DNA of 64,000 nt from the NCBI RefSeq assembly GCF_900108035.1, contig NZ_FNVS01000017.1, positions 1 to 64,000 on the forward strand, written 5' to 3'. Position 1 is the first letter of the stretch; each line of letters begins with the position of its first letter. The DNA is from Parabacteroides chinchillae (lineage in GTDB: Bacteria; Bacteroidota; Bacteroidia; Bacteroidales; Tannerellaceae). A model generated the notes under the pieces. The model saw only the letters and a program-made list of their open reading frames with translations. It was not told where the DNA came from and made no database searches. A program made the position numbers and the translations under genes. Shown piece after piece: positions 9,593 to 55,688 of this stretch.

Positions 9593-9623
9593 AAGCCGGA
9601 GTTTTTTATAAAAACTCCGGCTT
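9593..9623. terminator. Bidirectional terminator
   Basis: AAGCCGGAGTTTTT (9593-9606) and AAAAACTCCGGCTT (9610-9623) form a perfect 14-bp stem with a short loop. It serves the acyl-CoA synthetase from the left and probably also the eight-gene minus-strand locus, whose last gene ends at 9660. Confidence 0.8.
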
Positions 9624-9659: not shown

Positions 9660-11084
9660 TTACTCTGAAATCATTTTTTCAATTTCTTCCAATGAGCGTC
9701 CGGTTGTTTCGGGAATCAGTTTCCACATGATAAACATGTAAGGAATACACATGGCGGCAAACAATAGGAATGTTCCTTCCGGAGTCAGGTTCTTCAGCAT
9801 CCACGGGGTTAACTGTCCGATCAGGTATGTACCGATCCATAAAGAGAATCCTGCAATAGACATGGCAAGACCACGCACGCGAATCGGGAACATTTCTGAT
9901 AGAAGAACAAATACTACCGCACAGATTGAGATTGCACAACAGAAAATGTAGAACATGAATGATACCAACAGGAATATACTTGATATGCCCATTGCTTCAC
10001 CGTTATGGAAGTAGAATGCAATTAGCAATAATGCTAAAATCATACCTGAAACTCCCCAGTATACCAGTTTCTTACGTCCTACTTTGTCGATGATAAACAA
10101 TGCAATGATAGTAGTAATCATGTTAACCAAACCAACAAGTACCTGGTAAAATAATGAATCGCCGCCTGAAAGCCCGCTTTGTTCAAAGATTGTAGGACCG
10201 TAGTATAGCACGGCATTTACACCCATAAACTGACCCAGAATGGCAATGGCAGAACCAATAAGTACCATCTTAAAGATAGCCGGCTTGAAAAGATAAGCCC
10301 ATTGGCCTGACTTTGAGGAATCCTCGCTTATTACCATCTGGCGGGTACTTTCCAACTGGCTTACCGCTTCCTGGATACTTCCATAGATACGTTGCAGAAT
10401 ATGCTGTGCACTGTCGTCGCGACGTTTTAGAATTAACCAACGCGGGCTTTCCGGTATGAAGAATATCACTATAAAGAATATAACGGAAGGAACGGCACAC
10501 ATTCCTAACATGCCGCGCCACGATTCGGTATAGAATACTTTTTCGAATAGAGAGACGGATGCCGGATCGGTTATTGTTGCCATACCGCTTTCGGCCAGGT
10601 TCAGCAAAAGATGGTTTACCAGATAGGCTCCTACCATACCGACTGTTACACCGAACTGGTAAAGTGATACAAGGCTGCCGCGATATTTTGCAACAGCTAC
10701 TTCTGATATATATAACGGAGATATGATGGAAACAATACCGATACCTACACCTACAAAGATGCGGGAAACAATAAGCATTGTGAAATCCGTACTTACTGCA
10801 CAGCCTATGGCAGAAAGCGAGAAAAGGATGGCGGAGAATAACATTGTGCGTTTACGCCCGAACATATCACCTAAAATACCGGCAACAGATACACCGCCGA
10901 TCGAACCGACCAGTGCGCAACCTACGTACCAGCCCAGTTGCATCTCATCAAGCCCGAATAATTTAGCTACTTGCTGATTGGTTCCGGATACAACTGCTGT
11001 GTCATATCCGAAAAGGAATCCGCCTAAAGCAGCAACGAGAGATAGGAATATTACATATCCCATGTTAACATTGTTGTTGTTCAT
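9660..11084 (-). CDS. MFS sugar:H+ symporter (SP family, XylE-like)
   Basis: This inner-membrane transporter of 474 residues has about 12 membrane segments and the sugar-porter signatures: GGFLFGYDTAVVSG near the N-terminus, GDMFGRKRTM in loop 2-3, SRIFVGVGIGIVS, the FIPESPRWL motif at the end of the first half and PETTGRSLEEIE at the C-terminus. It should import a monosaccharide or a small modified sugar by proton symport. It is the last gene of the ROK-to-MFS locus, 20 bases after the DUF4434 gene. This placement suggests that the product released in the periplasm by the exported enzymes upstream is its substrate. The exact sugar is unknown. Confidence 0.9.
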   Translation of the reverse strand: MNNNNVNMGYVIFLSLVAALGGFLFGYDTAVVSGTNQQVAKLFGLDEMQLGWYVGCALVGSIGGVSVAGILGDMFGRKRTMLFSAILFSLSAIGCAVSTDFTMLIVSRIFVGVGIGIVSIISPLYISEVAVAKYRGSLVSLYQFGVTVGMVGAYLVNHLLLNLAESGMATITDPASVSLFEKVFYTESWRGMLGMCAVPSVIFFIVIFFIPESPRWLILKRRDDSAQHILQRIYGSIQEAVSQLESTRQMVISEDSSKSGQWAYLFKPAIFKMVLIGSAIAILGQFMGVNAVLYYGPTIFEQSGLSGGDSLFYQVLVGLVNMITTIIALFIIDKVGRKKLVYWGVSGMILALLLIAFYFHNGEAMGISSIFLLVSFMFYIFCCAISICAVVFVLLSEMFPIRVRGLAMSIAGFSLWIGTYLIGQLTPWMLKNLTPEGTFLLFAAMCIPYMFIMWKLIPETTGRSLEEIEKMISE

Positions 11085-11104
11085 AAATTACAGTCTTTTC
11101 TTTA

Positions 11105-12205
11105 TTATATGTTGAAGTATTCCTTATAGCGGTCGTACAAGTGGCCTGCCTGAAGGTATGCAGACTGCGGGCTCATAAAATGTGAGAACTCGAAAGTGAT
11201 GGCCTTATCATAGTTCTGACGGGCTGCAGCTTCTAACTTCATGCGTAACTTGTCGAATTTAATTGGCAGAAACTTGATAGGCATGTCGCGGTCAAATGAT
11301 TCAGCATTTGTCCAGCATTCGATACCATATTTGTCTGCCATTTTCTTGTTGACGCTAAAGAATGCATCCAGTTCGTCATAGTCTATATGTCCGTCCTGGA
11401 AAGCGCAGGCATCAACATTGCCTTTGATGGCTTCAAAGATCTCAGACCACTCTCTTTCGTGTTCCTCGACAGAAACTGCCTGCGCTTTACTCAATGAACC
11501 AGAGGCTGCATCAACAGCTTTTTTACCGTCTATCCAAGGTGAAATAAGAGTAGGTAATCCTCCGGATACTTCCTTGCATTGTTTGCCCAGGCTACTGAAA
11601 GCATCTTTTGCACCTTTGGTAGCGCGGCTGATTTCCTGACAGAGGTACCAACCCTGGAAGCTCTTATAATGACCGTATTTTTTCCATACTTCTTCAATAA
11701 CGTATTTGTTGGATTCTATTTCCCAGGTAAGATCGCCTGTATCCCAATACTTACCCGAATCGTACAAACCGAAGTAGAACTTCATGTTGTATTTGTCGGC
11801 CAGTCTCAGGTACATGTCAATCAAATCGACTGAAGGTTTGTAACAACCGAATTTATTCATTAAATATTCGGAAGGGTAGGTGATGAATTTGCGATATCCT
11901 GAACGGATAACAATTACGGTATCAATACCAATGGCTTTCATGTAGGCAAAGTCTTGATCCCATTCCTTTTCTCCCCAGTTTTGATGAGGAATGTCATGTG
12001 ATATTTCGTCCAAAAATGTTCCGCTTATCTTTAAACCCTGTGCTTTGGGGACAATTAATGTACTTTCGATGTTTTCGCCGGAAGATTGTTTGTTGCCGTC
12101 TTTAGAACAATTACTCTTATCAGCGCATGAGGCAAGGCTGCCGGTTGCAAGAACAGCACTTGTAACCGATACCTGTTTGAGAAATTCTCTTCTACTATTT
12201 GTCAT
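11105..12205 (-). CDS. DUF4434 family lipoprotein/Tat-exported protein
   Basis: The 366-residue protein begins with a twin-arginine-like signal (RREFLKQ) followed by a hydrophobic stretch and the lipobox LASC at about residues 24-27, so it is probably a lipoprotein. The mature part starts with KISGTFLDEISHDIPHQNWG, typical of DUF4434, a TIM-barrel-like family related in shape to glycoside hydrolases. Conserved acidic candidates are in GWYLCQEI and AFQDGHIDYDEL. It sits between an FAD oxidoreductase and the sugar symporter, 16 bases from the former. A glycoside-cleaving or lyase role on an oxidised sugar fits the context but is inference. Confidence 0.75.
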   Translation of the reverse strand: MTNSRREFLKQVSVTSAVLATGSLASCADKSNCSKDGNKQSSGENIESTLIVPKAQGLKISGTFLDEISHDIPHQNWGEKEWDQDFAYMKAIGIDTVIVIRSGYRKFITYPSEYLMNKFGCYKPSVDLIDMYLRLADKYNMKFYFGLYDSGKYWDTGDLTWEIESNKYVIEEVWKKYGHYKSFQGWYLCQEISRATKGAKDAFSSLGKQCKEVSGGLPTLISPWIDGKKAVDAASGSLSKAQAVSVEEHEREWSEIFEAIKGNVDACAFQDGHIDYDELDAFFSVNKKMADKYGIECWTNAESFDRDMPIKFLPIKFDKLRMKLEAAARQNYDKAITFEFSHFMSPQSAYLQAGHLYDRYKEYFNI

Positions 12206-12221
12206 GATAAAAAATATTAAG

Positions 12222-14117
12222 TTATTTGTTTATTATATTTCCTTTGATGTCTATAGGAATGGTTTCGAATGGATTTACATAATAATTTAACAACACAGCA
12301 AACTCTTTGCGGGTAATAGCTCTATCTAATGAAAAATTACTAAGTTTTGCCGAATCCCAGCGTGGAGCAATACTATTGATAAAATCATCCAGATTCTTTT
12401 CGTATGCAGGGCTATTGTTGTATTCCATTAAATCATAAGTCAATTGGATTGCTTCTTTAACAGTTATTTCCTTATTCTGTATTTTGGGGTTGAAGTTGGG
12501 ATAGTAGTCTTTCAATCCCGGAAGCAATGCTTCGGCAGTTAATGCAGAATCTGCATCAAACCAGGTTTCGTTAGACCACCCCCGGTTTGTACCGCGTCCT
12601 TTCAGGATACCTGTTGCTCCAATACGTTGCAAGGCGGCAAAGTTCCTGTCAGTTTTGGGTAAATCCAGGAAAGGTAGCAGATAGCATCCTCCCCGGAGTA
12701 ATACAGATTGAACTTCACGTATTGATACTTCTGAAACATCTTTCTTTTCTCTTACAGCCAGTCCGGCCAAAGCACCTGCCGCTTGTCCTATCTGTACCAA
12801 TATGGGTTGCAGGCGGGTTGTTCCGTTTACCAGGTTGGATACAGAAATAGACTTTTCTGTAACCAGCAAGTGATCAACATCTTTTGGAATGATAACTCCT
12901 AATGGCAGTCCGTAAGAAGGAACTGGGTAGAAATGTAGTTCCGGGAGCTTGTCTGCTTCGGGATATCGGGCATGGTGATGGTCAACAGCATAGTCTCCTA
13001 CTGCGATAGCCGTACGATATAACTTTTCCGGTTGCGCATATGGAGATGCCATGTGATTGACATTGAAGCGAACGAGTCCGTGTATTCTTCTTGATTCGCG
13101 ATGGTATGGAATAAATGGCAATTTGTCTGCTGTCGGAAATTCATCGTCGGCAAGACCTAATGTATTAAAGCCTAATTCATTTTGTAAATAATAAATGAAA
13201 CACATAGTGAAGTTTTTTGCTTTTTGCAATGCTTCTTTGCGTTCTTTAGGCTTCATTTCAATGATGTTCAGATAATAATCGTTACCCTCGATAGGCCAGT
13301 TGATCATGTATTTATTATTCGGCAATTTACCATAAGTAATCATTCTGTCTTTATCCCACAAGACACTGCCCTTTTTGGGGTTTTTACATTTAGGGTATTT
13401 GCAGGTACAATAGAATATCGAGGGATCGTAGCCTTCGGGCTTGGCTATGGTAACGTCTTTGCCATAATCTTTCAATATTGCAACGTATGTGAGATCCTGA
13501 ATAATATTGTTCGATACCTCCGGGCCAATATCTTCGCCGGATAAACTCTTGGCTTCCATTCCTATGTCGTATTTAACGCCACAGGCTTTGGCAACATCTC
13601 CTAATTCGGTACCATCTATCAATACTTTTGCTTCCAATAGTTGATACTCTCCTCCTTTATCGATCACAACACGCCAGCCTCTGGGCATTTTTTCGATTTT
13701 TTGAACAGTGGAGTTATACCATAAATCAAGCCGGTTCTCCTTTTCTGCCATTTGCTTGAATATTTTATTCATAACACTGGGCTCGGCAGCTACGGCCGAT
13801 ACCCATGAAGTACGCAGGCTGTCTGTTCCTCCATAATAATTTGAAAGCTCATTACGGAATTCTCCGAATATACCGGAAGGTAACCGATAATTTCCATCAA
13901 TACAACTTACTCCTGCTGATGTCAGAGCACCGCCTAACCATTCATATTCTTCAACAATAAGCGTATTGGCTCCTAATCGTGCAGCTTGTATACCGGCTGC
14001 GGTTCCACTGGCACCGCCTCCGATAATAAGTACGTCTACTTCCTTTGGTTGTTGGCATGCGGTTAGAAAGATAGTCCAAATACATGCAAAAAAACATGAA
14101 AATACAATTCGTTTCAT
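12222..14117 (-). CDS. FAD-dependent oxidoreductase lipoprotein
   Basis: The 631-residue protein has a short hydrophobic signal with lipobox FLTAC (Cys21), so it should be lipid-anchored. The mature part opens with a clear FAD-binding Rossmann motif, DVLIIGGGASGTAAG (about residues 28-42), and IVEE at the end of the second strand. It belongs to the FAD_oxidored group (PF12831-like), in which the flavin often oxidises a sugar or polyol hydroxyl. About residues 390-450 (VDHLLVTEKSISVS and GTTRLQPILVQIGQAAGALA) form the second flavin-contact region. It follows the double-domain oxidoreductase gene by 9 bases. The substrate is unknown. Confidence 0.82.
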   Translation of the reverse strand: MKRIVFSCFFACIWTIFLTACQQPKEVDVLIIGGGASGTAAGIQAARLGANTLIVEEYEWLGGALTSAGVSCIDGNYRLPSGIFGEFRNELSNYYGGTDSLRTSWVSAVAAEPSVMNKIFKQMAEKENRLDLWYNSTVQKIEKMPRGWRVVIDKGGEYQLLEAKVLIDGTELGDVAKACGVKYDIGMEAKSLSGEDIGPEVSNNIIQDLTYVAILKDYGKDVTIAKPEGYDPSIFYCTCKYPKCKNPKKGSVLWDKDRMITYGKLPNNKYMINWPIEGNDYYLNIIEMKPKERKEALQKAKNFTMCFIYYLQNELGFNTLGLADDEFPTADKLPFIPYHRESRRIHGLVRFNVNHMASPYAQPEKLYRTAIAVGDYAVDHHHARYPEADKLPELHFYPVPSYGLPLGVIIPKDVDHLLVTEKSISVSNLVNGTTRLQPILVQIGQAAGALAGLAVREKKDVSEVSIREVQSVLLRGGCYLLPFLDLPKTDRNFAALQRIGATGILKGRGTNRGWSNETWFDADSALTAEALLPGLKDYYPNFNPKIQNKEITVKEAIQLTYDLMEYNNSPAYEKNLDDFINSIAPRWDSAKLSNFSLDRAITRKEFAVLLNYYVNPFETIPIDIKGNIINK

Positions 14118-14126
14118 AAAAGTTCA

Positions 14127-17100
14127 TCAGTATTTATTAGTCAATATCTCCCGAGCGAAGCGTGCATAGTGTCCTTCCAATCCGCACGCGTATCTGCTTA
14201 GTGTGTTTTCACCTAATTTGTTGTTATCTCCACAAAGATAAAGGCTTTTGGCCAAATGAAGCTCTTTTAGTATACGATTTCTGTATGAAATATCATGAAC
14301 ATAAGGAACTATTCTGGTTTGTGCTATCCTGTATGAAGGTATATCATTATACCGCATGCCTTCAATAGTAAGGAGTCGGGCTAATACAGGTGTAGCCTCG
14401 GAACTTTTAATTTTTTCACATGCTATACATATAGCACGATAGTGTGAAAAATGATCTTCCAGTTTCAATTGGTTTGCTTTCTCCAAAATGACGGGAAGAA
14501 CAGATGCATCTCCTGTGCTTCCGAGTGCAATGATGAGACTGTCCAGCGGACTCATGCATTCGCCGAATTGAGCCGATGCAGTATAATGCCATCCTTCATC
14601 CCAAACATCATAGGCCTTGATCGCATCTGCAACAACAGGCGCAAACTCTTTATTTCCTAAAATACAGAGGATACTAGCATAGATAAGACGGGCATCGCCT
14701 GATGCTCCGGATATATTTTTGCGGACTATGCGGATGCATCTGGCTGGATCGGTAAGTAATATTTCAAGGCCTTTATAACGCTCTTCCACAACCTGGCGGG
14801 CTGCAACTTCGAATTCCTTGTCAGAATAAGTTTTAGTTTCCTTGTCTGTGAGTACGCGAGCCGGAAGTATTCCTTTTTCAACAAGATGCTTTTGAATCTT
14901 CCGGATGTTGATTTTCCTTAATGATTGTTTATCAATTGCTGCCAATGCTGCCAGATAGCCAACAGAATAACCTTGGTTTTGAAGACATGGCTGCATGCGG
15001 ATTACAGGCATGGCATCTCTGTGTGCGCTTGCTCCCAAGCCTGTGACAATGATTCCTTCCAATCCGCGGGGTAACAGAGATCTTAAAGGTACATCTGCGT
15101 CATATATTACGTGACGTTTGCCTGGAGGATTCAATGTGAAGAAAGGATCGATTGTCATGCCATGCGTGTCAAATGAACTTTTATGATATGATATGGTATC
15201 AGGATATCTTTTATGATTGATTACGTCGTATACAGTGACTGTATAATCTCCTATAATACGGCGTCTTTCACGTGTTTGAGGGAGTTTTCCTAAATCATAA
15301 AATCCTTTGTATTTTGCTTTGCCCTGTACATAAAGACGACTGACATCTAATATATCCGTATCATCAATAAGAGTCCAGTCTGTATTATTGTAATAGTCAT
15401 TTGGTTCGAAACGGGATAGTCCGGCTCCTTGTACGGCAAGGGTCTTCTTTCCCGTATATTCGTAATCTGCTCCGGCTGCAATGGCTATATCTGCACTTCC
15501 GGTGCTATCGATAACAATATTCGATAATATAACGCCACGGCCGAAAGGTGTTGTGACAATAAGACCTTCCACTTTTCCTTTATGTACTAATGCTCCGCAT
15601 CCGATGACACCGTACCATAGTTCGGCTTTATGTTTGCGGAGTTGTTGACGGTACCATTCTATTTTCCAGTCGGCACGGAACTTGGCGTCAGACTTAATCT
15701 GACGTGGATGATCGGCAGGAGCCATATTACGTACGGCTTTGTCAATTTCTGCTGTGTAACCTTCGCGGAAACCATCCCAATAACAGCCAATAAAGCCTAG
15801 AGTTGCTATTCCTCCGAGACCATGGAGGTAGTCTAAAACCAAAGTTTTGGCATTATGCATGGCAGCAGAAATTCCGGCTGGTGCCCCGGCGGTACCGCCT
15901 CCCATAACGACTACGTCGTATTGGCCTAATACAGGCAAAATAGATTGATTGGTTTTTACGTAGCCTTTATCCAGATTCGGACGTAGAGGATATAAAAGTT
16001 CTTTTACTTCTCCACAATAAGAAGCTGTTCCTTTAGGACTTGAAATTTGATAATCAGTCGCTAATTGGGTGTCTTGTAGATTGCTGGCAACAAATTCCCC
16101 CATCATTTCTCCTAACGCCATTGCATTGACCGGGCGGGATAACCAGCCGGCTACATCCCGTGGAACTGCCGCACATGGCCCTACAACCCAAAGGTTTTTG
16201 ACTCCTTGACATGCAAATGCTTGTTTGGGTAATTCGTAAGCGGAACGGATTGTTTCGAACCCATCCGGTGAGTATTTTATAACATTATGAACAAAAGGCT
16301 TTTTGGGGATGGATTCCATTGATAAGAGAGAATTCAGCTTTTCCCCAGCTGATATGATATGCCATGAAGGAGTATACCATAGAAGATCGGAACTGTCAAC
16401 TTGGTCTGCATCCCAAGTAATATCCCGGATATATTGTTCGGCTTCCATTAAGGATGCATAAGATTTGTCTTTTATTTCGTAATCGAAGGTATAACGGATT
16501 ACCGGATATTCTTTGCCATCTGATTTAACAGTAAATGGCATAGTGTTTACCTTCGAAATCTTTGGCGATTCAATCGCTTTGTTTCCTACTACAGTGTAAG
16601 TAAATGTTTGTTTTCCCGGTTTGAATTCTGTAAAAGGAACATTACACATTTCTGCAATGACGGCTGTCGTTGTTGTGTCAATAATACCTTTACAACGAAT
16701 GGCTTGTCTACCCGAACGGTTTGCAATGACAACACCGGCAATATTACCGTTTTTATCAATTAAAACGTTAGTAGGTAAGCTACTGTATAGGAAATGTATA
16801 TCGTTGTTGATTAATTCGTTTTCTAAGGTGGTTTTTACATGTAAGGGAGTAGGGGCTTGTTGTTGGGTATATAAAATATCTTTTTCCGGGAGATTATTAT
16901 ATGAGATTCTTGGATCTTCTTCTATTAAAAATATTTTTCGGGCAATTGCTGTTTGTGCCTGTTCTTCTTTTTTGTCTATTTGGTACATGAATGAACCGCA
17001 AATATCATCTCCCAGATAAGGCATGCCTGCTATTAAAAAAACTTTGCTTCCTGTTTTTGCTGCAGAAACAGCCGCAGAAACGGCTCCGGAACTACCTCCA

Positions 17101-17273
17101 ATAATGACGATATCGGTTTCTTCTATAATAGGAATATTGCGTTCAGACTCTTCGCAAAAGGATGGAACTTGAGTAAATTGCTGAATTTTATTCTTTGCTT
17201 CGGTAACGTTGCCGAATGATACCAGCGCACTACTAGCTGCTGTTAGCTTTAAAAAATCTCTACGTGTTATCAT
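14127..17273 (-). CDS. Tat-exported double FAD-oxidoreductase fusion with HEAT-like tail
   Basis: The 1048-residue protein starts with a Tat signal (ITRRDFLKLTAASSA). Two oxidoreductase-like halves follow. The second half (from about residue 450) has a canonical flavin motif, YDVVVMGGGTAGAPAG, with Asp481 closing strand two (LVLDY) and GASAHRDAMPVIRMQP near the C-terminal FAD contact. In the first half (from about 53) the corresponding stretch is DIVIIGGSSGAVSAA, where the third glycine position is Ser and the last is Ala, and strand two ends in FLIAG without an acidic residue. That half probably does not bind FAD in the normal way. Residues about 880-1000 resemble HEAT repeats (GDARLIYASILCILGNKEF, GSTGDASVLPVILEKA). 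It is the first gene after a hairpin behind susD. Confidence 0.8.
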   Translation of the reverse strand: MITRRDFLKLTAASSALVSFGNVTEAKNKIQQFTQVPSFCEESERNIPIIEETDIVIIGGSSGAVSAAVSAAKTGSKVFLIAGMPYLGDDICGSFMYQIDKKEEQAQTAIARKIFLIEEDPRISYNNLPEKDILYTQQQAPTPLHVKTTLENELINNDIHFLYSSLPTNVLIDKNGNIAGVVIANRSGRQAIRCKGIIDTTTTAVIAEMCNVPFTEFKPGKQTFTYTVVGNKAIESPKISKVNTMPFTVKSDGKEYPVIRYTFDYEIKDKSYASLMEAEQYIRDITWDADQVDSSDLLWYTPSWHIISAGEKLNSLLSMESIPKKPFVHNVIKYSPDGFETIRSAYELPKQAFACQGVKNLWVVGPCAAVPRDVAGWLSRPVNAMALGEMMGEFVASNLQDTQLATDYQISSPKGTASYCGEVKELLYPLRPNLDKGYVKTNQSILPVLGQYDVVVMGGGTAGAPAGISAAMHNAKTLVLDYLHGLGGIATLGFIGCYWDGFREGYTAEIDKAVRNMAPADHPRQIKSDAKFRADWKIEWYRQQLRKHKAELWYGVIGCGALVHKGKVEGLIVTTPFGRGVILSNIVIDSTGSADIAIAAGADYEYTGKKTLAVQGAGLSRFEPNDYYNNTDWTLIDDTDILDVSRLYVQGKAKYKGFYDLGKLPQTRERRRIIGDYTVTVYDVINHKRYPDTISYHKSSFDTHGMTIDPFFTLNPPGKRHVIYDADVPLRSLLPRGLEGIIVTGLGASAHRDAMPVIRMQPCLQNQGYSVGYLAALAAIDKQSLRKINIRKIQKHLVEKGILPARVLTDKETKTYSDKEFEVAARQVVEERYKGLEILLTDPARCIRIVRKNISGASGDARLIYASILCILGNKEFAPVVADAIKAYDVWDEGWHYTASAQFGECMSPLDSLIIALGSTGDASVLPVILEKANQLKLEDHFSHYRAICIACEKIKSSEATPVLARLLTIEGMRYNDIPSYRIAQTRIVPYVHDISYRNRILKELHLAKSLYLCGDNNKLGENTLSRYACGLEGHYARFAREILTNKY

Positions 17274-17307
17274 GATATATCCTCTTCATATCTTTTTTAT
17301 TGAAAAT

Positions 17308-17336
17308 AATCATGCCGGAATTGCTCCGGCATGATT
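17308..17336 (-). terminator. Intra-operon hairpin after susD
   Basis: AATCATGCCGGA (17308-17319) and TCCGGCATGATT (17325-17336) make a perfect 12-bp stem with a 5-base loop. It lies between susD and the downstream oxidoreductase gene. The U tract on the minus strand is weak (ATTATTTTC). It is more likely a partial terminator or mRNA 3'-end stabiliser that lets SusC/SusD be made in excess. Confidence 0.6.
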
Positions 17337-17350
17337 TTGTATTCTTGTTA

Positions 17351-19123
17351 TTAATAACCCTCGTTTTGTGCTAGGTTTGGATTACGGTTTCTTTCCTGTT
17401 GAGGAATAGGCCATAATTCAAATTTTTTATCCCAATAACGATTTACATCTCTAACTTTTAATTTACTCTTGTATATATCATAACTTGGAATGTCATTTAA
17501 ATCGTGACGTGCACTCTTTTTGAAATTAGGAATATCAGTGGCAGACATACCTTCATAACGGATTGTTGGCAATGGTAATCCGTAAGACGGTTGATCATTT
17601 TCTATATCTCCGATGCCCCATCTTCTCATATCAAAAATATGAAGACCTTCCAAGGCAAATTCCACTTTACGTTCACGTCTTACTAGTTGACGCATTTTGT
17701 CTTGGTTTCCTATGCGGTCTGCTGATACGTCAGGCATACCTGCACGGTTACGTACTTGATTGATGGCATCGTATACAGACTGATCTAGTTCATTTAATTC
17801 AATTTTAGCTTCTGCATAGCTTAACAATATTTCAGCATAGCGCATTATTGGAACGTTACAACTAGCGCTACTGATATTTTCATCTATTTCTTTGCTATAT
17901 TTTGCCCAGATGTAACCCACACCAGCATTGCAGAAACTTGCCCAAGCTGCAGCACTATTCATATCGTCATTATTTCTTTCTTCCCATGTATTTGTCGTAT
18001 AATTATACTGCTTGGTTGTTAATTCATATGCTTCCAATATAATGGTGTTTATAGAACCATTATTTGTTGTACATGTATCTCCGTGCATCCAAAGTGTTGC
18101 TCCGAATCTGGGATCTCTGTTTTTCTGGGGATGGCGTGGATCATATAATGGCGATTCATCGATACGTTTACCATCGATACATTCATATGTGTCGGCTAAC
18201 ATTGAACTAGGATGGCGTCCCGTTTGTCCTTGAATTCGGGAAACTTGTCCAAATGCAATTACATTAATCATTTGAACGCTGGCAGTATTGCTATAAGGTA
18301 ATTCAAATATGAATTCATTGCGAACGTCGCTTTTGGCTTGTCCAGCAATAGTCCACAAATCTTCAAAATTCTGAGCTAATCCTCTTTGACCGATGACTTT
18401 AGATGCCGCCTCTGCAGCAGCTTTAAAATATTCTGAACTTTTTCCTCCGTAATTCAGACCTCCTCCAAGTAATCCGGCACGTGCTATAACACCGTATGCA
18501 AAGGCTCTATCGACACGTCCTCTATCTTCGGCAATCCATGGAAGTTGTTCTGCTACACTGTTTATGTCTTTTATAATAAAATCTAATATTTCTACTTTAG
18601 ATGTTCTTGATACACTGTATTGTTCTGTTGTTACAGGTGTATCAAAGAAAGGAACATCACCCCATAATCCAATCAAGTAATAGTAACAAAACGCTCTTAG
18701 TACATGAGCTTCTGCTAAATATTGAAAAGATTTTGCATTCAGTGTCTCTTCATATGCTTTTGCTCCAGAAATAAGTTCGTTAGCACGTGCTATATTTGTA
18801 TATAGAAATGTCCAAAAACTTTGTACAGAGGCATTTTCAGGATTGAGACCACCACCGGCACCGATAGTCGTATTCTCATTTCTTTCTAAGGCGAGAGGGG
18901 TAAAATGGTCTAATGTTATAACATGAGGAACATTATAGCCCAGATTCATGTACATGTTTGCATAGATACCGGTTACACCCTCTTTAATTGAAATTTCGCT
19001 ATTAAAGAAACCATTACTGGTATAACCGTCATTAGTATCTGCTCTGTCTAAGAAGTCACTACACGATGTAGTGCTAACTCCAATTGTTATCAGTCCAAAT
19101 ATATATAATACTAATTTTTTCAT
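17351..19123 (-). CDS. SusD/RagB-family outer-membrane lipoprotein
   Basis: The 590-residue lipoprotein has a signal ending in STTSC (Cys21) and the SusD-type helical fold (about residue 130, FQYLAEAHVLRAFCYYYLIGLWGDVPFFDTP; near the C-terminus, RRERKVEFALEGLHIFDMRRWG and FELWPIPQQERNRNPNLAQNEGY). SusD proteins form the lid of SusC transporters and capture glycans at the cell surface. The gene follows susC by 12 bases. Without a surface hydrolase beside it, the natural ligand may be a small soluble molecule rather than a polymer; this is inference. Confidence 0.93.
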   Translation of the reverse strand: MKKLVLYIFGLITIGVSTTSCSDFLDRADTNDGYTSNGFFNSEISIKEGVTGIYANMYMNLGYNVPHVITLDHFTPLALERNENTTIGAGGGLNPENASVQSFWTFLYTNIARANELISGAKAYEETLNAKSFQYLAEAHVLRAFCYYYLIGLWGDVPFFDTPVTTEQYSVSRTSKVEILDFIIKDINSVAEQLPWIAEDRGRVDRAFAYGVIARAGLLGGGLNYGGKSSEYFKAAAEAASKVIGQRGLAQNFEDLWTIAGQAKSDVRNEFIFELPYSNTASVQMINVIAFGQVSRIQGQTGRHPSSMLADTYECIDGKRIDESPLYDPRHPQKNRDPRFGATLWMHGDTCTTNNGSINTIILEAYELTTKQYNYTTNTWEERNNDDMNSAAAWASFCNAGVGYIWAKYSKEIDENISSASCNVPIMRYAEILLSYAEAKIELNELDQSVYDAINQVRNRAGMPDVSADRIGNQDKMRQLVRRERKVEFALEGLHIFDMRRWGIGDIENDQPSYGLPLPTIRYEGMSATDIPNFKKSARHDLNDIPSYDIYKSKLKVRDVNRYWDKKFELWPIPQQERNRNPNLAQNEGY

Positions 19124-19135
19124 AACTGTATTTTA

Positions 19136-22100
19136 TTAAAATCTTAAATCTATTCCAAATGTATATACCTGCATTACAGGATAAAAACTGCCTATATCAC
19201 TTTCAGGATCATAACCGTCATAAACATTACATATAGTAAATAAATTCTGACCGCTTATATAGAAACGCAGGTTGTCTATTTTTGTTTTGCTGAGAATTTT
19301 TTTCGGTAGAGTATAACCGATTGTAACGTTCTTTACACGCATGTAAGCTCCGCTTTTAACCCAGAATGAGGATGGTATATTATTCATATTACTACCACTT
19401 CCATCAATTAGCAATAAAGGGAATTTAGCGTCTCTGTTAGTCTCGGACCAACTATCTAACTGATTACGGAATATAGTTCTTCCGATGTAGAATGGTCTTG
19501 TTCCGTATGCTTGAGAATAAATATCTTTTTTACCAACACCTTGTAAAAATACAGAAAAGTCAAAGTTATTCCATTCCGCACCTAAATTTAAACTGAATGT
19601 GTAGCGAGCTTGCGGGTCACCAATTATAGTACGATCATAGTCATCTATTTTTCCGTCAGGAGTTCCTTCTGGTCCACTTATATCCTTATATTTGATATAG
19701 CCCGGTTTTACGTTTGCTTTGTTTCCTCCATATACGGGTTGATCTGGATTATCTATTTCTGCTTGTGATTGGAAGAATCCATCAGCAACATAGCCATACC
19801 AAGAATAGATAGGATGTCTTTCTTGTGTTGTATTATTATCATTAATGTATTTGTTGCCATATAGATCGGTTATTTCATTTTTTACATCAGATAATAATGC
19901 AGTTATGCTGTAATTTACTTTTCCAATTTTATCTCTCCAATTGATAGATAAATCCCATCCATTGTTTTTCATGGATCCTGCATTTTCCCAACTAGAACTT
20001 AAACCAACGTATATAGGTGCAGGAAATATCTGCAACATATCTGTTATATTTCTGATATAATAATCAAATGTTACATTTAATTTGGAATTAATAGCTGTGA
20101 GGTCTAGTCCGAAGTTTGCTTGTGTTGACTTTTCCCATGTGATATTAGCATTGGACATGCTTGATGCATATATACCAGTTGTATATTTTTCATTAAACCA
20201 GTACCCTGCACCGGAACTTAGTGTAGATGCATATGGATAATAACCGGTAATATCTTGGTTCCCTAATGTACCATAAGAAGCACGAATTTTTAAATTACTA
20301 ATTTTATCTTTTAAAGGTTCAAAGAATGACTCTTCTGATATTCTCCATCCCGCAGATGCTGCAGGGAAGAATCCCCATCTATTATTTGAAGTAAAACGGG
20401 ATGAGCCATCATAGCGTCCTGTTAGTTCAATTAAATATTTGTCTGCAAAAGTGTAGTTGAAACGTGCAATATATGACATCATCGCAAATTCAGATCTACC
20501 TCCTGAAGCGGTGGATGTGGAAGCGTCACCATGATTTAATTGTTCATATCCATCATAGTAGAAATTTTTGCGTCCAGCCCCCATGCTTTTATTTTTTATT
20601 TCTTCGGTTTGGAAACCTAGGAATCCTTTAAAATAGTGCTTTTCTTTGAATGTATTTTCATAAGAAACTTGTGCATTAAATTGGTTTCTTATAAGTCTAC
20701 TCCATGATTCACTTCTAGCCCTTCCTGTAGTTGGATATGTCATGATATAGTTACCAGCTTCATATGTATCGTATGTATTCGTGAAGTTATCGGATTTATT
20801 TTCATATTTCCTTGTGTCATAACTTCCTAATATTTCAAGACCTTTAAGTGGAGTTAAAACTAATGTTCCTTTTACATTGATATCATTGTTATCTGAAGTA
20901 TTCACTCCTCCAACTTTTGCTTGTGCAATTGGGTTAATTCCATTTTGTCCGTTTCCCCATGTCCCATCAGCGTTAATACCTCCAAAAACAGGAGTATAAG
21001 TTAATGCTTGATTAATAATAGATGCAGCTCCTGCATTAGGCTGTTTTGATACAGTTCTACGGATATTTAAATTAAGACCGGCAGATAACCAATCTGTGAT
21101 TTTGGCATCAGTGTTAGTTCTTAAAGCTTTTCGATTGTAATCATTATTAGGTACTAAACCATCTTCGTAGTTGTAAGATGCATTAGCAAATGTCTTGATA
21201 CGATCAGAACCTCCACTGACACTTACAGAGTGGTTATGAGTCAGCATCGTATTTTTAAATAGTAGCTCTTTCCAATTTGTATCAAAATTGTGAATGTTAT
21301 CAGCTCCTTGAGTCTTATAAGTGTTGATAAGTTCTTCCGAATACTGTGGTAACATATCCTGATTGTCACGAGCAATGTTTACGGCTTCCATATATTCAAT
21401 TGCGTTAACCGGATCCGGCATTTCTGCAGGTGTACGGAAACCTACATATCCATTATAAGAGACTTTTACGCCTGTGTTTTGTGCTCGCTTGGTTGTAACC
21501 AATATAACACCGTTAGATGCTTTTGAACCATAAATGGCAGCAGAAGCTGCATCCTTTAATACAGAAATTGATTCAATTGCATTCATATCAATTGAGTTCA
21601 TATCACCTTCAACCCCGTCAATTAAAATTAAAGGAGATGCGGATGAATTGATAGAACCGGTACCACGAATTTGAATTGAGGCTTCAGCTCCGGGAGCTCC
21701 AGAACTTTGACCTACCACAACACCAGGGATTAAGCCTTGTAAAGCTTGTGAAGAGTTGGCCACATTTCGTTTGACAAGTTGTTCACTTGAAACGCTTTGT
21801 ACGGCTCCCGTCAAATTAACTTTCTTTTGAGTGCCATAACCAACGACAATAACTTCATCCAAATTTTCAGCGTTTGACATCAGTCTGATGTCTAGAGATT
21901 TCTGTCCTTTAACAGAAATCTCTACAGATTTATATCCTATATAAGATATTTCTAGGATACTTTGATCGGATGGGACTTGTAGTGTAAACTCTCCGTTAAT
22001 ATCCGTAATTATACCAATAGTGGTACCTTTTACCACGATGTTTGCGCCGATGATTGGTTCGCCATTTTCATCGACTACTTTACCAGAAATAGTTTTTTGC

Positions 22101-22243
22101 TGGTTAACGATTGTTGCGATTGGGGATTCGTCTGCGAATACCGGTTGGTAGGTGCCGACAGCCATACCTGCAATTGCCAAACATAGAACCAATGGTTTTA
22201 CCCTATTGGTCTTTGCTTTTGAAAATTTTAAGTGGACCTTCAT
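19136..22243 (-). CDS. SusC/RagA-family TonB-dependent transporter
   Basis: The 1035-residue protein has a long signal peptide, an N-terminal carboxypeptidase-regulatory-like domain (TISGKVVDENGEPIIGANIVVKGT, about residues 50-125) and a TonB box region EVIVVGYGTQ. These are followed by the plug (QALQGLIPGVVV and SIQIRGTGSINSSASPLILIDG) and a 22-strand barrel ending in FGIDLRF, with a C-terminal aromatic residue. No STN domain is present, so it is not expected to signal directly to an anti-sigma factor. It pairs with the SusD protein downstream and takes up the substrate of the ROK-controlled locus. Confidence 0.95.
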   Translation of the reverse strand: MKVHLKFSKAKTNRVKPLVLCLAIAGMAVGTYQPVFADESPIATIVNQQKTISGKVVDENGEPIIGANIVVKGTTIGIITDINGEFTLQVPSDQSILEISYIGYKSVEISVKGQKSLDIRLMSNAENLDEVIVVGYGTQKKVNLTGAVQSVSSEQLVKRNVANSSQALQGLIPGVVVGQSSGAPGAEASIQIRGTGSINSSASPLILIDGVEGDMNSIDMNAIESISVLKDAASAAIYGSKASNGVILVTTKRAQNTGVKVSYNGYVGFRTPAEMPDPVNAIEYMEAVNIARDNQDMLPQYSEELINTYKTQGADNIHNFDTNWKELLFKNTMLTHNHSVSVSGGSDRIKTFANASYNYEDGLVPNNDYNRKALRTNTDAKITDWLSAGLNLNIRRTVSKQPNAGAASIINQALTYTPVFGGINADGTWGNGQNGINPIAQAKVGGVNTSDNNDINVKGTLVLTPLKGLEILGSYDTRKYENKSDNFTNTYDTYEAGNYIMTYPTTGRARSESWSRLIRNQFNAQVSYENTFKEKHYFKGFLGFQTEEIKNKSMGAGRKNFYYDGYEQLNHGDASTSTASGGRSEFAMMSYIARFNYTFADKYLIELTGRYDGSSRFTSNNRWGFFPAASAGWRISEESFFEPLKDKISNLKIRASYGTLGNQDITGYYPYASTLSSGAGYWFNEKYTTGIYASSMSNANITWEKSTQANFGLDLTAINSKLNVTFDYYIRNITDMLQIFPAPIYVGLSSSWENAGSMKNNGWDLSINWRDKIGKVNYSITALLSDVKNEITDLYGNKYINDNNTTQERHPIYSWYGYVADGFFQSQAEIDNPDQPVYGGNKANVKPGYIKYKDISGPEGTPDGKIDDYDRTIIGDPQARYTFSLNLGAEWNNFDFSVFLQGVGKKDIYSQAYGTRPFYIGRTIFRNQLDSWSETNRDAKFPLLLIDGSGSNMNNIPSSFWVKSGAYMRVKNVTIGYTLPKKILSKTKIDNLRFYISGQNLFTICNVYDGYDPESDIGSFYPVMQVYTFGIDLRF

Positions 22244-22336
22244 AATTAAACTTTTTAATTAGACATAAATATTATTAGGTTGATAGTTTTTATTAGAATA
22301 AGGATTTATAATCGTGGTTAATATGTCTTTGTGTGA

Positions 22337-22369
22337 TGTAAAGGCTTGATTTTATTTCAAGCCTTTACA
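22337..22369 (-). terminator. Hairpin overlapping the stop of the AGE epimerase gene
   Basis: TGTAAAGGCTTGA (22337-22349) pairs with TCAAGCCTTTACA (22357-22369), and the stop codon of the epimerase gene lies within the structure. No U tract follows on the minus strand. It may be a processing or attenuation signal between the epimerase and susC. Confidence 0.55.
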
Positions 22370-23551
22370 TTTTTCCATTATTTGCCAGCACTGATACATT
22401 CCTCTCGGAACGTGGAAGCATCCTTTCCATTTTCCACCTTTCAATGGTAAAAGCACTTCACCTTGACGATTCAGATAACCGTACCATTCCGGGTATTCGG
22501 GATCTTTAAAATGAGCCCATGAGTAATCTTGAACTTTGCTGAACCAGTCTAGACATTCTTTGTTGCCGGTTAATGCATATCCTTTAGACATACAAATCAT
22601 TGTTTCGATGTGTACCCACCAAAGTTTTTGATCCCATTCCAATTGTTGTGGAGGATAGTTTAAACGGTCCATGAAATAGAAAATACCTCCGTATTTTTCA
22701 TCCCATCCTTTTTTGACCATTTTCAAAGAAATGTCAACTGCTTTTTGAATTAACTCCGGACGGTTTAGGCGAACACCTAAGTCCATAATAAACCACATTG
22801 CTTCAATTGAATGCCCAGGATTAAGAACACGGCCTTCAAAAGAATCAGAAAGTTTTTCGTCGGCAGTTACATTTTCGACAACAAGTCCTAATTCTGGACG
22901 GTAGAACACATCTAAAACTTCATGCAGACATACATCTATTGTCTTAGACATTGTTTCTTCGTCCAATAAGTGTTCTATTTCAAGAGAGAGATTGCACATG
23001 ATCATTGGCAAAGCAAAATTTTTCAGATCCCTGCTACCTGGCATTAATTTATTCCATTTGCCTTTAGGGTTATCCATCTTAGACAGGATTTTCTGATATG
23101 TGGTTTTTGCTATATCTTCATACTCTTTGTTACCTGTTGCTAAGCTAAGTTGGCCAAATGCCATGGCTGCAAATGTATATGAGAAAATATTATACGGAGC
23201 TACTAATGGTTTTCCATCTCTTGTTAATGAAAAATACCAGTTGTAATTTCCATCATGTCCATATTTTTTTAAAAATTCTCCTCCCTGGATTGCGCAATCC
23301 AGCCATTCTTGTTTTTTTTCTACTTTATTATATAAGTAGGAGAAGAGCCAAACCTCTCTGCCCTGCAGCCAGATAAATTTATCAGTGTCAAAAACATCTC
23401 CTTCACGTGTCAAGCATGTGAAATAACCTCCGTATTTGTGGTCTTGTGATTTTTCCAGCCAGAAAGGAACTACATTATCTAATAATTCGCTTTTGTATTT
23501 TTCCGCTAATTGTTTAAAATCCATATTAAATCCTCCTATTTCTTTTTCCAT
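22352..23551 (-). CDS. AGE-family epimerase/isomerase (N-acylglucosamine 2-epimerase type)
   Basis: The 399-residue cytoplasmic protein has the (alpha6/alpha6) barrel of the AGE family: DKFIWLQGREVWLFSYLYN (about 57-75), FEGRVLNPGHSIEAMWFIMD with the catalytic-type His (about 240), LWWVHIETM (about 310) and CFHVPRGMYQCWQIM at the C-terminus. Members interconvert N-acetylglucosamine and N-acetylmannosamine, or epimerise glucose/mannose-type sugars or cellobiose. The ATG at 23524 (MDFKQLAEKY) is a likely alternative start, since the first nine residues are not family-like. It lies between the ROK regulator and susC. A link to amino-sugar or sialic-acid use is possible, but no lyase (NanA) or sialidase is present in the window. 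Confidence 0.85.
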   Translation of the reverse strand: MEKEIGGFNMDFKQLAEKYKSELLDNVVPFWLEKSQDHKYGGYFTCLTREGDVFDTDKFIWLQGREVWLFSYLYNKVEKKQEWLDCAIQGGEFLKKYGHDGNYNWYFSLTRDGKPLVAPYNIFSYTFAAMAFGQLSLATGNKEYEDIAKTTYQKILSKMDNPKGKWNKLMPGSRDLKNFALPMIMCNLSLEIEHLLDEETMSKTIDVCLHEVLDVFYRPELGLVVENVTADEKLSDSFEGRVLNPGHSIEAMWFIMDLGVRLNRPELIQKAVDISLKMVKKGWDEKYGGIFYFMDRLNYPPQQLEWDQKLWWVHIETMICMSKGYALTGNKECLDWFSKVQDYSWAHFKDPEYPEWYGYLNRQGEVLLPLKGGKWKGCFHVPRGMYQCWQIMEKCKGLK

Positions 23552-23652
23552 ATTAAATCTTATTGCGCATTATTTTTATGTGTGCAACAAATATAAATGA
23601 AATATTTTAATAAATATGTATAAAGAAACAGGAAAGATTAATAAATTAATTT

Positions 23653-24858
23653 TTATAACATATCAAGTACTTTACTTCTTGAAAGATAACAGGCACCTAA
23701 TAATCCTGCACGTTCGCCAAGTTTTGAAATTATTAAATTAGTATCTTGATTTACGAGATTAAGAGAGTATTTGCGAATAGCACTTTTGATAGGGAGACGA
23801 ATGTAGTCTTGTGTTTGTGAAATAGGACCACCTAAAATTACGAGTTCCGGATTGAAAATATTAATAAGTCCGGCAATCCAACGTCCTAAATTATTGCCTA
23901 CATATTCCAATACTTCAATAGATAAAACGTCTTCTTTTAATACGGCATCTACAAAATCGGATAATGTAATATCTCCATCACCTTCTATTTTATCGGAAAG
24001 AATTGTTGTGCTTCCTTGGGCATAGCGTTCCTGTAATATTCGTTGAATGGCATATCCTGAAGCTTCTGTTTCCAGACATCCTTTTTTGCCACATTTGCAA
24101 ATGATTTCATTATCGAAAGCACTTATATGACCGAATTCCCCTGAAAATCCGGATTTGCCATAATATAATTTTCCGTCTGTTATAATTCCAGCTCCGAGCC
24201 CCCAGTTTATATTGATAAACAGAATGTCTTTTTCTCCTTTTACTGAACCTGCCATGTACTCTCCATACATCATGGCCCGTGAATCATTTTCCAGATTAAC
24301 AGGGATGTGTATGTATTCTTCTATAATTTGTGAGAGCGGTCGTTCGTTAAAGTAGAAATAGCTATAAGAATATCCGGACAGTGAATTAATCCGCCCTGTC
24401 ATATTAACTCCGACTTGTAAAATTTTATTTTTCTCGATAGGAAGGTTATTTATATACGTTTCTATGATAGAACATAATTGTTCTAGCGCCTCCGGGGTGT
24501 TTTCTAATATATAAGGGATAATATCGTTTTGATCGATTATTTTACCATTAAAATCAATAGTTGCAAGTAAAACCCGTTTCCTTTGTACGTCTACGCCGAC
24601 AAAATATCCGGATTCAGGATTTAATCCGTAGATGTTGGGTTTACGTCCACCATTTGTGTTTTGTTTGCCGGAATCAAGAAGGTAACCATCTTCCAGCAAT
24701 TCCATGATAAGTTTGGTAACAGTAGGGACACTTAATTCCATCTCTTTAGATATGTCGGCAATGGAAGAGTTGCCTGATAGAATAAGGTACTGAATGATTC
24801 GCTTTTTTAGCGCTGCATTTTTTGAATTGCTATCCGTAAAAGAAAAATTTGTAGCCAT
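23653..24858 (-). CDS. ROK-family transcriptional regulator (NagC/XylR-like)
   Basis: The 401-residue protein has an N-terminal winged helix (about residues 15-75; SIADISKEMELSVPTVTKLIMELLEDGYL) and a ROK sugar-kinase-like domain (GYFVGVDVQRKRVLLA about 88; GEFGHISAF; zinc-binding CKCGKKGCLETEASG about 253). ROK regulators bind a sugar or sugar phosphate and repress nearby catabolic genes. It opens the eight-gene minus-strand locus, 101 bases before the AGE epimerase. A promoter-like element and a palindrome AGCGAA-N7-TTCGCT lie between 24876 and 24914, suggesting autoregulation. Confidence 0.92.
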   Translation of the reverse strand: MATNFSFTDSNSKNAALKKRIIQYLILSGNSSIADISKEMELSVPTVTKLIMELLEDGYLLDSGKQNTNGGRKPNIYGLNPESGYFVGVDVQRKRVLLATIDFNGKIIDQNDIIPYILENTPEALEQLCSIIETYINNLPIEKNKILQVGVNMTGRINSLSGYSYSYFYFNERPLSQIIEEYIHIPVNLENDSRAMMYGEYMAGSVKGEKDILFININWGLGAGIITDGKLYYGKSGFSGEFGHISAFDNEIICKCGKKGCLETEASGYAIQRILQERYAQGSTTILSDKIEGDGDITLSDFVDAVLKEDVLSIEVLEYVGNNLGRWIAGLINIFNPELVILGGPISQTQDYIRLPIKSAIRKYSLNLVNQDTNLIISKLGERAGLLGACYLSRSKVLDML

Positions 24859-24961: not shown

Positions 24962-24993
24962 AAACGCATGGATTAATGTTAATCCATGCGTTT
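24962..24993 (-). terminator. Rho-independent terminator of the second SusCD pair
   Basis: AAACGCATGGATTAA (24962-24976) pairs perfectly with TTAATCCATGCGTTT (24979-24993). On the minus strand the hairpin is followed by a T-rich stretch, and it lies 28 bases after the end of the susD-like gene. Confidence 0.8.
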
Positions 24994-25020: not shown

Positions 25021-26640
25021 TTATTTATATCTGCCGGTATCCCACCAAACTCTTACGTTTTGTCCATCACCTTTACCTTGGTTCAGACTAGGATCTTTTG
25101 AGTTGGGATTTAAAGATTGTTCGTCATCGATATAACGAAGCTTTTTGATGAATGTTCCTTTTGGAAGTAAATCTAAATCACTTTCTACAACAGGTGTGAA
25201 ATCTGGGTAACCTGTACGGCGGAATTCAGACCAGGCTTCTACGCCATTCGGATAGATACCGATCCATTTTTGAGTAATAATTCTTTTTAATTTACCTTCA
25301 AAGTCCGCACCTTCATCCCATTTAACATTACCACCATTGATATATGCATCGTCGTTGTCGGTTGTATAAACAGTTGGATCTGCATTTTCACGAGCCTCTG
25401 CAAATGAAGCACGAATACCTGCTTCGTAATTTGCTTTAGCATCACCAGCTCCTGCCCATCCGCGGATTGCAGCTTCAGCTTTCAAGAAACAAACTTCTGC
25501 ATAATTGAAAACAATGAACGGTTTTGTAACCTGTGCATAGTATGAGCTTGGAGCAGTCACTTTTGAACCTTTTGGATTTGAATTCCAGTTGCCGCAAGAG
25601 TTATATCCCCAAATACAAGAGGTGTTTTCTGGCAAATAATCAGGATATTTGTCTTTGTTGTTCATCATACTTGCAGGAAGTCCGTTAGGGAGTCCTCTCC
25701 ATCTTACATCAGAAGTTCCGTTTACATATCCTTCTGTTTGGCTGAAATGTAGTGGCAGACGTGGGTCCTCAATGCTACTTTCATTCAACATTACGTCTAT
25801 GATTGTTTTACTTACACGGAATTCGTTCCAGAAGCTGATACACCATAATGAGTGTCCGTTGCTTCTTGTATCCTGTTTTATTCCTGCTGTATCATCATTG
25901 CCTTCCATTAATACATCTTTAAGAGCTTTCTCTCCTTCTGCTTTTGCCTTTTCAGGATCTATATATGAAAGACGCATGGCTAGACGCAGACGAACTGAGT
26001 TACCTAATTTTATCCATTTATCCAGGTCTCCACCGTAAATAATATCAGATGTTCCGTATTTACTTTGAAGTTCATCGTTTTTATTTGCTTTTAGACTTGC
26101 AATAGCTTCATCCAGTTCTTTGAATAAGTCGTAGTAAATATCCTTTTGACTATCGTACTTAGGTGATAAAGTACCTTGACCTGCTTCGAAGTATGGTATG
26201 TCTCCAAATACGTCTGTTGTTCTTGAAGCTACCATCGTACCTAGAATACGCATAACCTGATACATGTTGCTATATTCCGGGTGTTGTTCCAAAGAATTTT
26301 TTGTAGAATACAAGTTATTTGCAAAATACAAATAATAAGCCTTCCAGTAAGCGTCCTTTACCCAGCTGTCTTTCCAGTCATAACGATCTGTAGGAAATCC
26401 GGTGGAAGAACAAGCTATATATTGTGCATACTGATTGGTATGTAAATTTTCACCAACCTGATATTCCCATGAACGACAATTGAAACCATACTCCTGCATC
26501 TTTGGCAAAAGAAGCGACGGACTTACTGCCGTTGGCTTTTGGGGATCTACATTCATATCATCAAAGTTCCCAGTACAACTGGTTAAAATGCCCGCGGCCA
26601 AACCGATGATTAATGTTATTTTTTGTTTGAACATTTTCAT
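25021..26640 (-). CDS. SusD-like (SusD_2 type) outer-membrane lipoprotein
   Basis: The 539-residue protein has a signal ending at the lipobox LTSC (Cys about 22). It follows the SusD_2 pattern, with NVDPQKPTAVSPSLLLPKM at the N-terminus, RTTDVFGDIPYFEAGQG about residue 140 and WIGIYPNGVEAWSEFRRTGYP about 455. It follows its susC partner by 14 bases and ends at a terminator, so the pair is transcribed on its own. SusD_2 pairs without nearby hydrolases often serve ligands other than long polysaccharides. The ligand here is unknown. Confidence 0.92.
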   Translation of the reverse strand: MKMFKQKITLIIGLAAGILTSCTGNFDDMNVDPQKPTAVSPSLLLPKMQEYGFNCRSWEYQVGENLHTNQYAQYIACSSTGFPTDRYDWKDSWVKDAYWKAYYLYFANNLYSTKNSLEQHPEYSNMYQVMRILGTMVASRTTDVFGDIPYFEAGQGTLSPKYDSQKDIYYDLFKELDEAIASLKANKNDELQSKYGTSDIIYGGDLDKWIKLGNSVRLRLAMRLSYIDPEKAKAEGEKALKDVLMEGNDDTAGIKQDTRSNGHSLWCISFWNEFRVSKTIIDVMLNESSIEDPRLPLHFSQTEGYVNGTSDVRWRGLPNGLPASMMNNKDKYPDYLPENTSCIWGYNSCGNWNSNPKGSKVTAPSSYYAQVTKPFIVFNYAEVCFLKAEAAIRGWAGAGDAKANYEAGIRASFAEARENADPTVYTTDNDDAYINGGNVKWDEGADFEGKLKRIITQKWIGIYPNGVEAWSEFRRTGYPDFTPVVESDLDLLPKGTFIKKLRYIDDEQSLNPNSKDPSLNQGKGDGQNVRVWWDTGRYK

Positions 26641-26654
26641 AATAAATTGTGAAA

Positions 26655-29780: not shown

Positions 29781-30112
29781 ACAAGGTTATTTTTATAAGT
29801 GGATAATTTGCATACTCGCTTGTATGCTGTGATTTTCTTTTTATTGATGGTAGTTTTTGTTCAAAACAATTTATTTGTCAAATATTTTAATAAATGACGC
29901 TGCGAATATAATATGTTTTGAAAACAAAATTTGTATTTTAAATGTTAAAATTTAACGCGATGTGCGCTTTTAACATTCTCGAAAGGTGAGATTTTTTTTA
30001 TTTGCCTGTTACTCAATGTGGTTTCGGAAGAAAGAAAAATAAAATTGTTTGTTATTTCAACAGGTTATATCGAATGCTAATCAATCTTATTTTTCTTTCT
30101 GTTTTTTTTGTT
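29781..30112. other. Intergenic region upstream of the second susC
   Basis: This AT-rich stretch of 332 bases should hold the susC promoter. An inverted repeat, GCATAC-N6-GTATGC (29810-29827), lies 30 bases before the start codon and could be an operator or a leader hairpin. A near-consensus AATATTTG on the minus strand (29879-29886) is the best -7 candidate. The proC stop is at 30113, with no clear terminator beside it. Confidence 0.4.
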
Positions 30113-45251: not shown

Positions 45252-45274
45252 TAATTATTAATTTAAAATAGGAT

Positions 45275-55646: not shown

Positions 55647-55658
55647 AGATATTTTCCG

Positions 55659-55666: not shown

Positions 55667-55688
55667 TCCGATATAACGACAAGATATT

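Follow-up and report, generated by a model that had tools for sequence, protein, structure and literature searches.

The closest described relatives of the gene unit considered here are sialic-acid (nan) systems, 3-keto-glycoside routes and a region of Bacteroides thetaiotaomicron. The unit lies on the minus strand of a 64,000-nt stretch of the Parabacteroides chinchillae contig NZ_FNVS01000017.1 (the window, whose numbering is used for all coordinates; the genome totals 3.57 Mb) and combines a ROK-family regulator, an N-acetylglucosamine (GlcNAc) 2-epimerase (AGE), SusC/SusD proteins, two exported flavoproteins (FAD1 and FAD2), a DUF4434 protein and a sugar porter of the major facilitator superfamily (MFS). 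The nan operon of Tannerella forsythia reportedly holds an epimerase, a regulator, a transporter and a SusC/SusD-type pair, as the window does; we take the regulator of nan systems to be a ROK protein and their epimerase to be AGE-like. The nanR-L-E-T genes for sialic acid in Bacteroides fragilis share epimerase, regulator and transporter with the window (PMC13114119).

The 3-keto-glycoside routes (BT2157-type DUF1080 hydrolase, BT_2158-type dehydrogenase and LacABC) resemble the window in that envelope oxidoreductases stand beside glycan use. However, these routes use other enzymes, LacABC and DUF1080 (PMC9007349), whereas the window has PF12831 flavoproteins in place of Gfo/Idh/MocA proteins or LacABC and lacks a DUF1080 protein. 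A further counterpart is the BT0433-BT_0435 region of B. thetaiotaomicron, which belongs to the NanR/BT0433 regulon (PMC3878776) and whose DUF4434 protein BT_0435 (structure 4h41) is 78% identical to ours. Compared with this core, the window adds two SusC/SusD pairs and two exported flavoproteins in its own order. In Bacteroides finegoldii (L075), ROK stands divergent from DUF4434-MFS-AGE.

We consider it fairly probable that the unit, under the control of ROK, serves the use of a glycan that contains N-acetylhexosamine, and more narrowly of one from which N-acetylmannosamine (ManNAc) is released; the substrate is perhaps a ManNAc-glycoside. Gene content, recurrent linkage in related genomes, gene order in a second species, an operator-like site, the active-site residues of the epimerase and a TIM-barrel model with two invariant glutamates all point in this direction. 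The kind of system is known; what is new is the arrangement, an amino-sugar polysaccharide utilization locus in which a BT0433/BT_0435-type core with a predicted clan GH-A glycosidase is combined with exported flavoproteins.

Composition of the unit and its putative control

The first-pass annotation described an eight-gene unit, and its eight open reading frames (ORFs) are intact and form one unit; Pfam and NCBIfam confirmed all the gene assignments. The ROK regulator (23653..24858; PF00480, 185 bits; HTH_24) has an N-terminal winged helix and is followed by AGE, a cytoplasmic N-acyl-D-glucosamine 2-epimerase (22352..23551), SusC2 (19136..22243; TIGR04056, 989 bits), SusD2 (17351..19123; PF07980, 178 bits), FAD1 (14127..17273), FAD2 (12222..14117), the DUF4434 protein of the BT_0435 type (11105..12205) and the MFS porter, an XylE-like inner-membrane transporter of the SP family (9660..11084; TIGR00879, 357 bits, cutoff 238). 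From AGE to MFS the intergenic gaps measure 108, 12, 77, 9, 16 and 20 bp. We extend the unit to ten genes because a second SusC/SusD pair upstream of ROK (25021-29780) is preceded by the same putative operator as the AGE operon, letter for letter. This pair, a TonB-dependent outer-membrane porter (SusC1, 26655..29780; TIGR04056, 746 bits) and a surface lipoprotein of the PF12741/PF12771 type (SusD1, 25021..26640; PF12741, 325 bits), is of another type than SusC2/SusD2 in profile scans. With two SusC/SusD pairs and a predicted glycan-processing enzyme, the unit has the makeup of a Sus-type polysaccharide utilization locus.

All ten genes occur in identical order in Parabacteroides bouchesdurhonensis, on two overlapping stretches of one contig, with identities of 85% (SusC1), 86% (SusD1), 92% (ROK), 90% (AGE), 85% (SusC2), 92% (SusD2), 82% (FAD1), 72% (FAD2), 90% (DUF4434) and 90% (MFS). 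In a third Parabacteroides genome, ROK-AGE-SusC2-SusD2 and FAD2-DUF4434-MFS lie on separate contigs, and the SusC1/SusD1 pair was not found beside ROK. SusC1 and SusD1 are 62 to 64% and 54% identical, respectively, to SusC and SusD proteins near DUF4434 in the related loci L042, L043 (Tannerella) and L098.

Relatives of the DUF4434 protein are common in Bacteroidota, with at least 584 encoding stretches. We took the best 80 (72 to 90% identity in the best segment), a sample that weights close relatives more and in which several loci end at contig ends, and counted 77 after dropping three without an intact DUF4434 ORF (L060, L066 and L097). ORF calling relied on a simple script, and each neighbor cluster was named from one or two members that were scanned. 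Genes no more than six positions from DUF4434 included MFS in 70 loci, AGE in 40 (with 3 more of low identity), SusC in 37, ROK in 32 and SusD in 29; 25 loci had a PF12831 protein. This recurrence exceeds chance. We call DUF4434 patchy because only 5 of 198 genomes in an even draw of the order, our own included, encode it at an E value of ≤1e-80.

A 16-bp word is identical in the gaps preceding AGE (23600..23615, minus strand) and SusC1 (29880..29895, minus strand; ATTTATTAAAATATTT), and ATTTAWTAAAATATTT has only these two exact copies in the genome. With ≤2 mismatches allowed, the window and the 80 loci hold 33 matches in the 29,386 bases that precede core genes, against 11 in 76,221 bases from other intergenic stretches; the pattern was derived from the window, overlapping sites and near-identical loci were tallied separately, and intergenic stretches were trimmed to 600 bases. 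Twenty mononucleotide shuffles of the upstream set gave a mean of 4.35 matches and a maximum of 7. The majority sequence of 27 aligned sites is the palindrome TTAATAAAATATTTTATTAA. Seven loci (L027, L034, L072, L079, L080, L085 and L102, with L079 and L080 from the same species) have an operator-like site between ROK and FAD2, which would place the flavoprotein under the same control.

Three hairpins lie on the minus strand: one with a T-run after SusD1 (24963..24992, approximate ends), a likely terminator that was read by eye and is absent from the hairpin-scan list; one of 12 to 13 pairs between SusD2 and FAD1 (17308..17336), a possible attenuator or processing site; and a terminator-like one of 14 pairs after MFS (9593..9623). 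Because of the shared operator-like word, its recurrence and the hairpin after SusD1, we infer two coregulated transcripts, SusC1-SusD1 and AGE to MFS, with ROK between them as the presumed binding protein.

The window ROK scores 179 bits against the NagC model, under its cutoff of 650. Its presumed counterpart is the ROK protein BT0433, whose locus number differs by two from that of BT_0435. A 2013 study gave BT0433 the name NanR, predicted "sialic acid; N-acetylglucosamine" as its pathway and found orthologues in all of the 11 Bacteroides genomes considered (PMC3878776). A 2025 paper counts the NanR iModulon as one of four "closest match" modules, which overlap known regulons to a limited extent and include uncharacterized proteins (PMC12596196).

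The predicted glycosidase and the sugar of the locus

The first-pass annotation recognized no classical glycosidase or glycoside hydrolase (GH) family enzyme in the unit. This is doubtful because the DUF4434 protein has a GH-A fold and two conserved glutamates. In the structure comparison, the protein, which is 78% identical to solved BT_0435 (4h41), adopts a TIM barrel, (beta/alpha)8, and its further matches are mostly GH-A-type glycosidases at 9 to 15% identity. We take GH5, GH164, GH2 and GH1 to be members of clan GH-A. Glu191 and Glu302 are invariant in DUF4434 relatives (57 rows of one alignment and 18 of 18 rows of another) and lie in the structural model just after strands 4 and 7, respectively, as do the glutamates of clan GH-A retaining glycosidases. 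Hence, the DUF4434 protein, which carries a twin-arginine translocation (Tat)-like signal, is probably a retaining glycosidase of this clan, and a glycosidase would not be missing from the unit.

Crystal structure 4h41, released in 2012, is titled "putative alpha-L-fucosidase," a name that nothing in our analysis backs. The main texts of the open-access literature searched name neither the DUF4434 domain nor BT_0435-BT_0437, and no activity report for DUF4434 was found there. If the protein is read as a probable GH-A enzyme belonging to an amino-sugar regulon, a direct assay suggests itself. Genomes of the same class also encode short DUF4434 proteins of about 310 residues (L116, L119 and L120) that lack a signal peptide, keep both glutamates and are probably a cytoplasmic form. 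The P. chinchillae genome has six more PF14488 matches, on contigs C21, C4, C14, C27 and C30, with two on C30 about 2 kb apart.

AGE scores 709 bits (708.7) on the N-acylglucosamine 2-epimerase model NF052547 (cutoff 600), and its structure matches include 6f04 (E = 4.7e-154) and 2gz6 (E = 1.8e-152). Aligned to 2gz6, it keeps R65, H247, E316 and H380, the catalytic Arg, two His and Glu known from work on the Anabaena enzyme. By model cutoff and active-site residues, we assign AGE as a GlcNAc 2-epimerase. The cellobiose and mannose subtypes were ruled out by scores of 63 bits (cellobiose 2-epimerase, cutoff 800) and 34 bits (mannose isomerase, cutoff 600). These scores also bear on the idea of a neutral beta-mannoside locus, in which DUF4434 would be a beta-mannosidase or mannanase and AGE would act on mannose or a disaccharide: GH5 mannanases and mannosidases and GH164 predominate in the upper rows of the DUF4434 fold list, but the epimerase does not look the part, and we regard this idea as improbable.

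Among the related loci, genes assigned by cluster include GH20 (5 of 77), NAGPA (6 of 77), DUF5009 (6 of 77) and SASA esterase (4 of 77), and one locus has GH84. The DUF5009 protein that was scanned is weakly NagX-like (49 bits, cutoff 480). The P. chinchillae genome has a NagB gene outside the unit. Given the identity of the epimerase, these amino-sugar neighbors and the NanR label, and because sialic acid is unlikely here, our best guess for the AGE substrate is free ManNAc from a ManNAc-containing glycan.

A locus for N-acetylneuraminic acid (Neu5Ac), in which AGE would handle the ManNAc released when Neu5Ac is cleaved, would agree with the NanR name given to BT0433 in the 2013 study (PMC3878776) and with a single BNR_2 sialidase-like protein encoded at another place in the genome. 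The unit has no sialidase, the MFS protein is an SP sugar porter that scores far under the cutoffs of sialate models, and SusD2 reaches 44 bits on NanU (cutoff 425). No sialate lyase is recognizable in the genome, where TIGR00683 gives only DapA (332 bits over 206) and a 27-bit match, although a lyase too distant for the models is possible. With no lyase found by the NanA model, we rejected sialic acid as the substrate, and the Neu5Ac reading seems to us very improbable.

For the ManNAc-yielding glycan that we favor, the following sequence of events would fit. The two SusC/SusD pairs would import glycan fragments. DUF4434, exported folded via Tat, would cut a glycosidic bond by a retaining mechanism with Glu191 as acid/base and Glu302 as nucleophile, and FAD1 and FAD2 may alter a portion of the glycan within the envelope, either ahead of this cut or once it has been made. 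The MFS porter would take in the sugar, and AGE would convert ManNAc to GlcNAc, which would then follow the general GlcNAc route. ROK would bind the palindrome before AGE and SusC1 and be released by an amino sugar or its phosphate.

Several points weigh against this reading. The classic origin of ManNAc is lacking, since no sialate lyase is recognizable, and the source proposed here is a guess. The unit has no kinase or NagA, nor does it have the GH20, GH84 or NAGPA genes seen elsewhere. Of the 77 loci, 34 lack an AGE gene up to six positions from DUF4434, although some of their stretches end at contig ends, and the best AGE relative in T. forsythia is 37% identical and lies beyond the retrieved locus stretch. 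Fold rank says nothing on specificity, and the mannoside-rich list may be accidental. The correspondence of ROK to BT0433 is presumptive, and the putative operator palindrome may differ from the published NanR motif. Finally, when one mismatch is tolerated, the genome has 4 matches to the operator and 5 to a backward control; weaker matches are therefore meaningless, and the exact copies alone carry weight.

By cluster, genes for phosphodiester glycosidases of the NAGPA type occur at the DUF4434 loci L050, L091, L093, L095, L099 and L103, five of which also have GHL10/DUF4985 genes; NAGPA was confirmed in one scanned member. A phosphodiester-linked amino-sugar glycan, such as teichoic acid, would fit these loci.

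Exported PF12831 flavoproteins

Both flavoproteins, taken in the first-pass annotation as two exported flavin adenine dinucleotide (FAD) oxidoreductases, exceed the Pfam cutoff of 27 bits for PF12831 and carry a dinucleotide-binding motif (FAD2, 302 bits; FAD1, 229 bits in three stretches), but FAD1 has to be redescribed as a double flavoprotein with PF12831 stretches in both halves of its 1,048 residues. Its second module has the motif GGGTAGA, and the first has the weaker GGSSGAV. FAD1 has a twin-arginine signal (RRDFLK); FAD2 (631 residues) has a lipoprotein-like signal with LTAC in its N terminus. RRxF is present in 7 of 7 FAD1-type ORFs and in 0 of 17 FAD2-type ORFs, and a third, shorter kind of about 570 residues has a Tat-like signal in 8 of 10 cases. 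Tat export of folded FAD1 would fit a protein that leaves the cytoplasm with its cofactor bound. Among the 60 of 88 matches listed, solved relatives align with PF12831 proteins solely in the first, FAD-binding part, approximately the first 180 profile positions, and FAD1 has no match to solved structures at 1e-5. FAD1-type proteins are rare: at E ≤ 1e-50 they occur in 6 of 295 genomes from the order, our own included.

On the DUF4434 tree, the presence of a PF12831 protein requires 13 changes, at least 5 of which are forced by well-supported branches. The label is clustered, and descent plays a part in its recurrence because none of 500 shuffles gave so few changes (shuffle mean, 22). The flavoproteins are thus recurrent but optional partners: shared descent explains part of the pattern, and several separate gains or losses remain.

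The first-pass annotation proposed that FAD1 and FAD2 oxidize a sugar ring hydroxyl outside the cytoplasm, after which the keto-glycoside is split and the product imported. This order is no more than a possibility, and a plausible ordinary hydrolase is present in the unit. The 13 changes on the tree suggest repeated recruitment of PF12831 proteins, and the sites between ROK and FAD2 in seven loci count in favor of this route; however, 52 of the 77 loci have no PF12831 neighbor, no result in our analysis ties PF12831 to a sugar, and the envelope of an anaerobe presumably offers no obvious electron acceptor. A BT_2158-family glycoside 3-dehydrogenase is encoded near DUF4434 in just 3 of 77 loci (two whole and over the cutoff, one split by a contig end at 466 bits), too few pairs with a flavoprotein for a tree-based test. 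Pfam and NCBIfam scans of the ten window proteins found no BT_2158-type and no DUF1080 protein; two BT_2158-family genes over the cutoff lie elsewhere in the genome, on contigs C21 and C14. We keep the oxidation idea alive because the BT_2158-family genes always accompany a PF12831 flavoprotein (3 of 3 loci), but as a whole it appears doubtful.

With a similarly tentative standing, and alongside the amino-sugar reading that we favor, PF12831 flavoproteins repeatedly recruited to ROK-controlled amino-sugar loci could catalyze an as yet undescribed step, dependent on flavin, in breaking down glycans. Even redox-neutral cleavage is conceivable, in which transient ring oxidation, elimination and rereduction would take place on the bound FAD, a flavin counterpart of NAD-using glycosidases. 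If the flavoproteins do act on the same glycan, species amenable to genetics would allow a test for a new kind of flavin chemistry in glycan feeding.

A module of GHL10, DUF5018, phosphoesterase and NAGPA genes co-occurs with a flavoprotein in 4 loci, while 21 have the flavoprotein only, 25 the module only and 27 neither. Flavoproteins are less frequent in module loci (Fisher P = 0.011), a value that ignores kinship and that we do not use as evidence. Fumarate-reductase-like genes before the flavoprotein in L067, judged by eye from the first residues, were taken as neighbors and not as partners. In another genome of the genus, SusC and SusD stand beside three consecutive PF12831 flavoproteins (L106:6206-18308), one of which has a Golvesin C-terminal domain; the FAD1-type gene sits between the other two, a divergent GH20 gene adjoins, and no DUF4434 lies within the 20-kb stretch.

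Other genes in the window

Outside the unit, a gene for a 955-residue protein without a Pfam match at 1e-10 spans 59400-62267. At 44418-46189, a xylose-isomerase-like TIM barrel (AP_endonuc_2) adjoins a 277-residue protein that likewise has no Pfam match at this threshold. An M64 peptidase gene followed by an M23 peptidase gene occupies 54363-57374.

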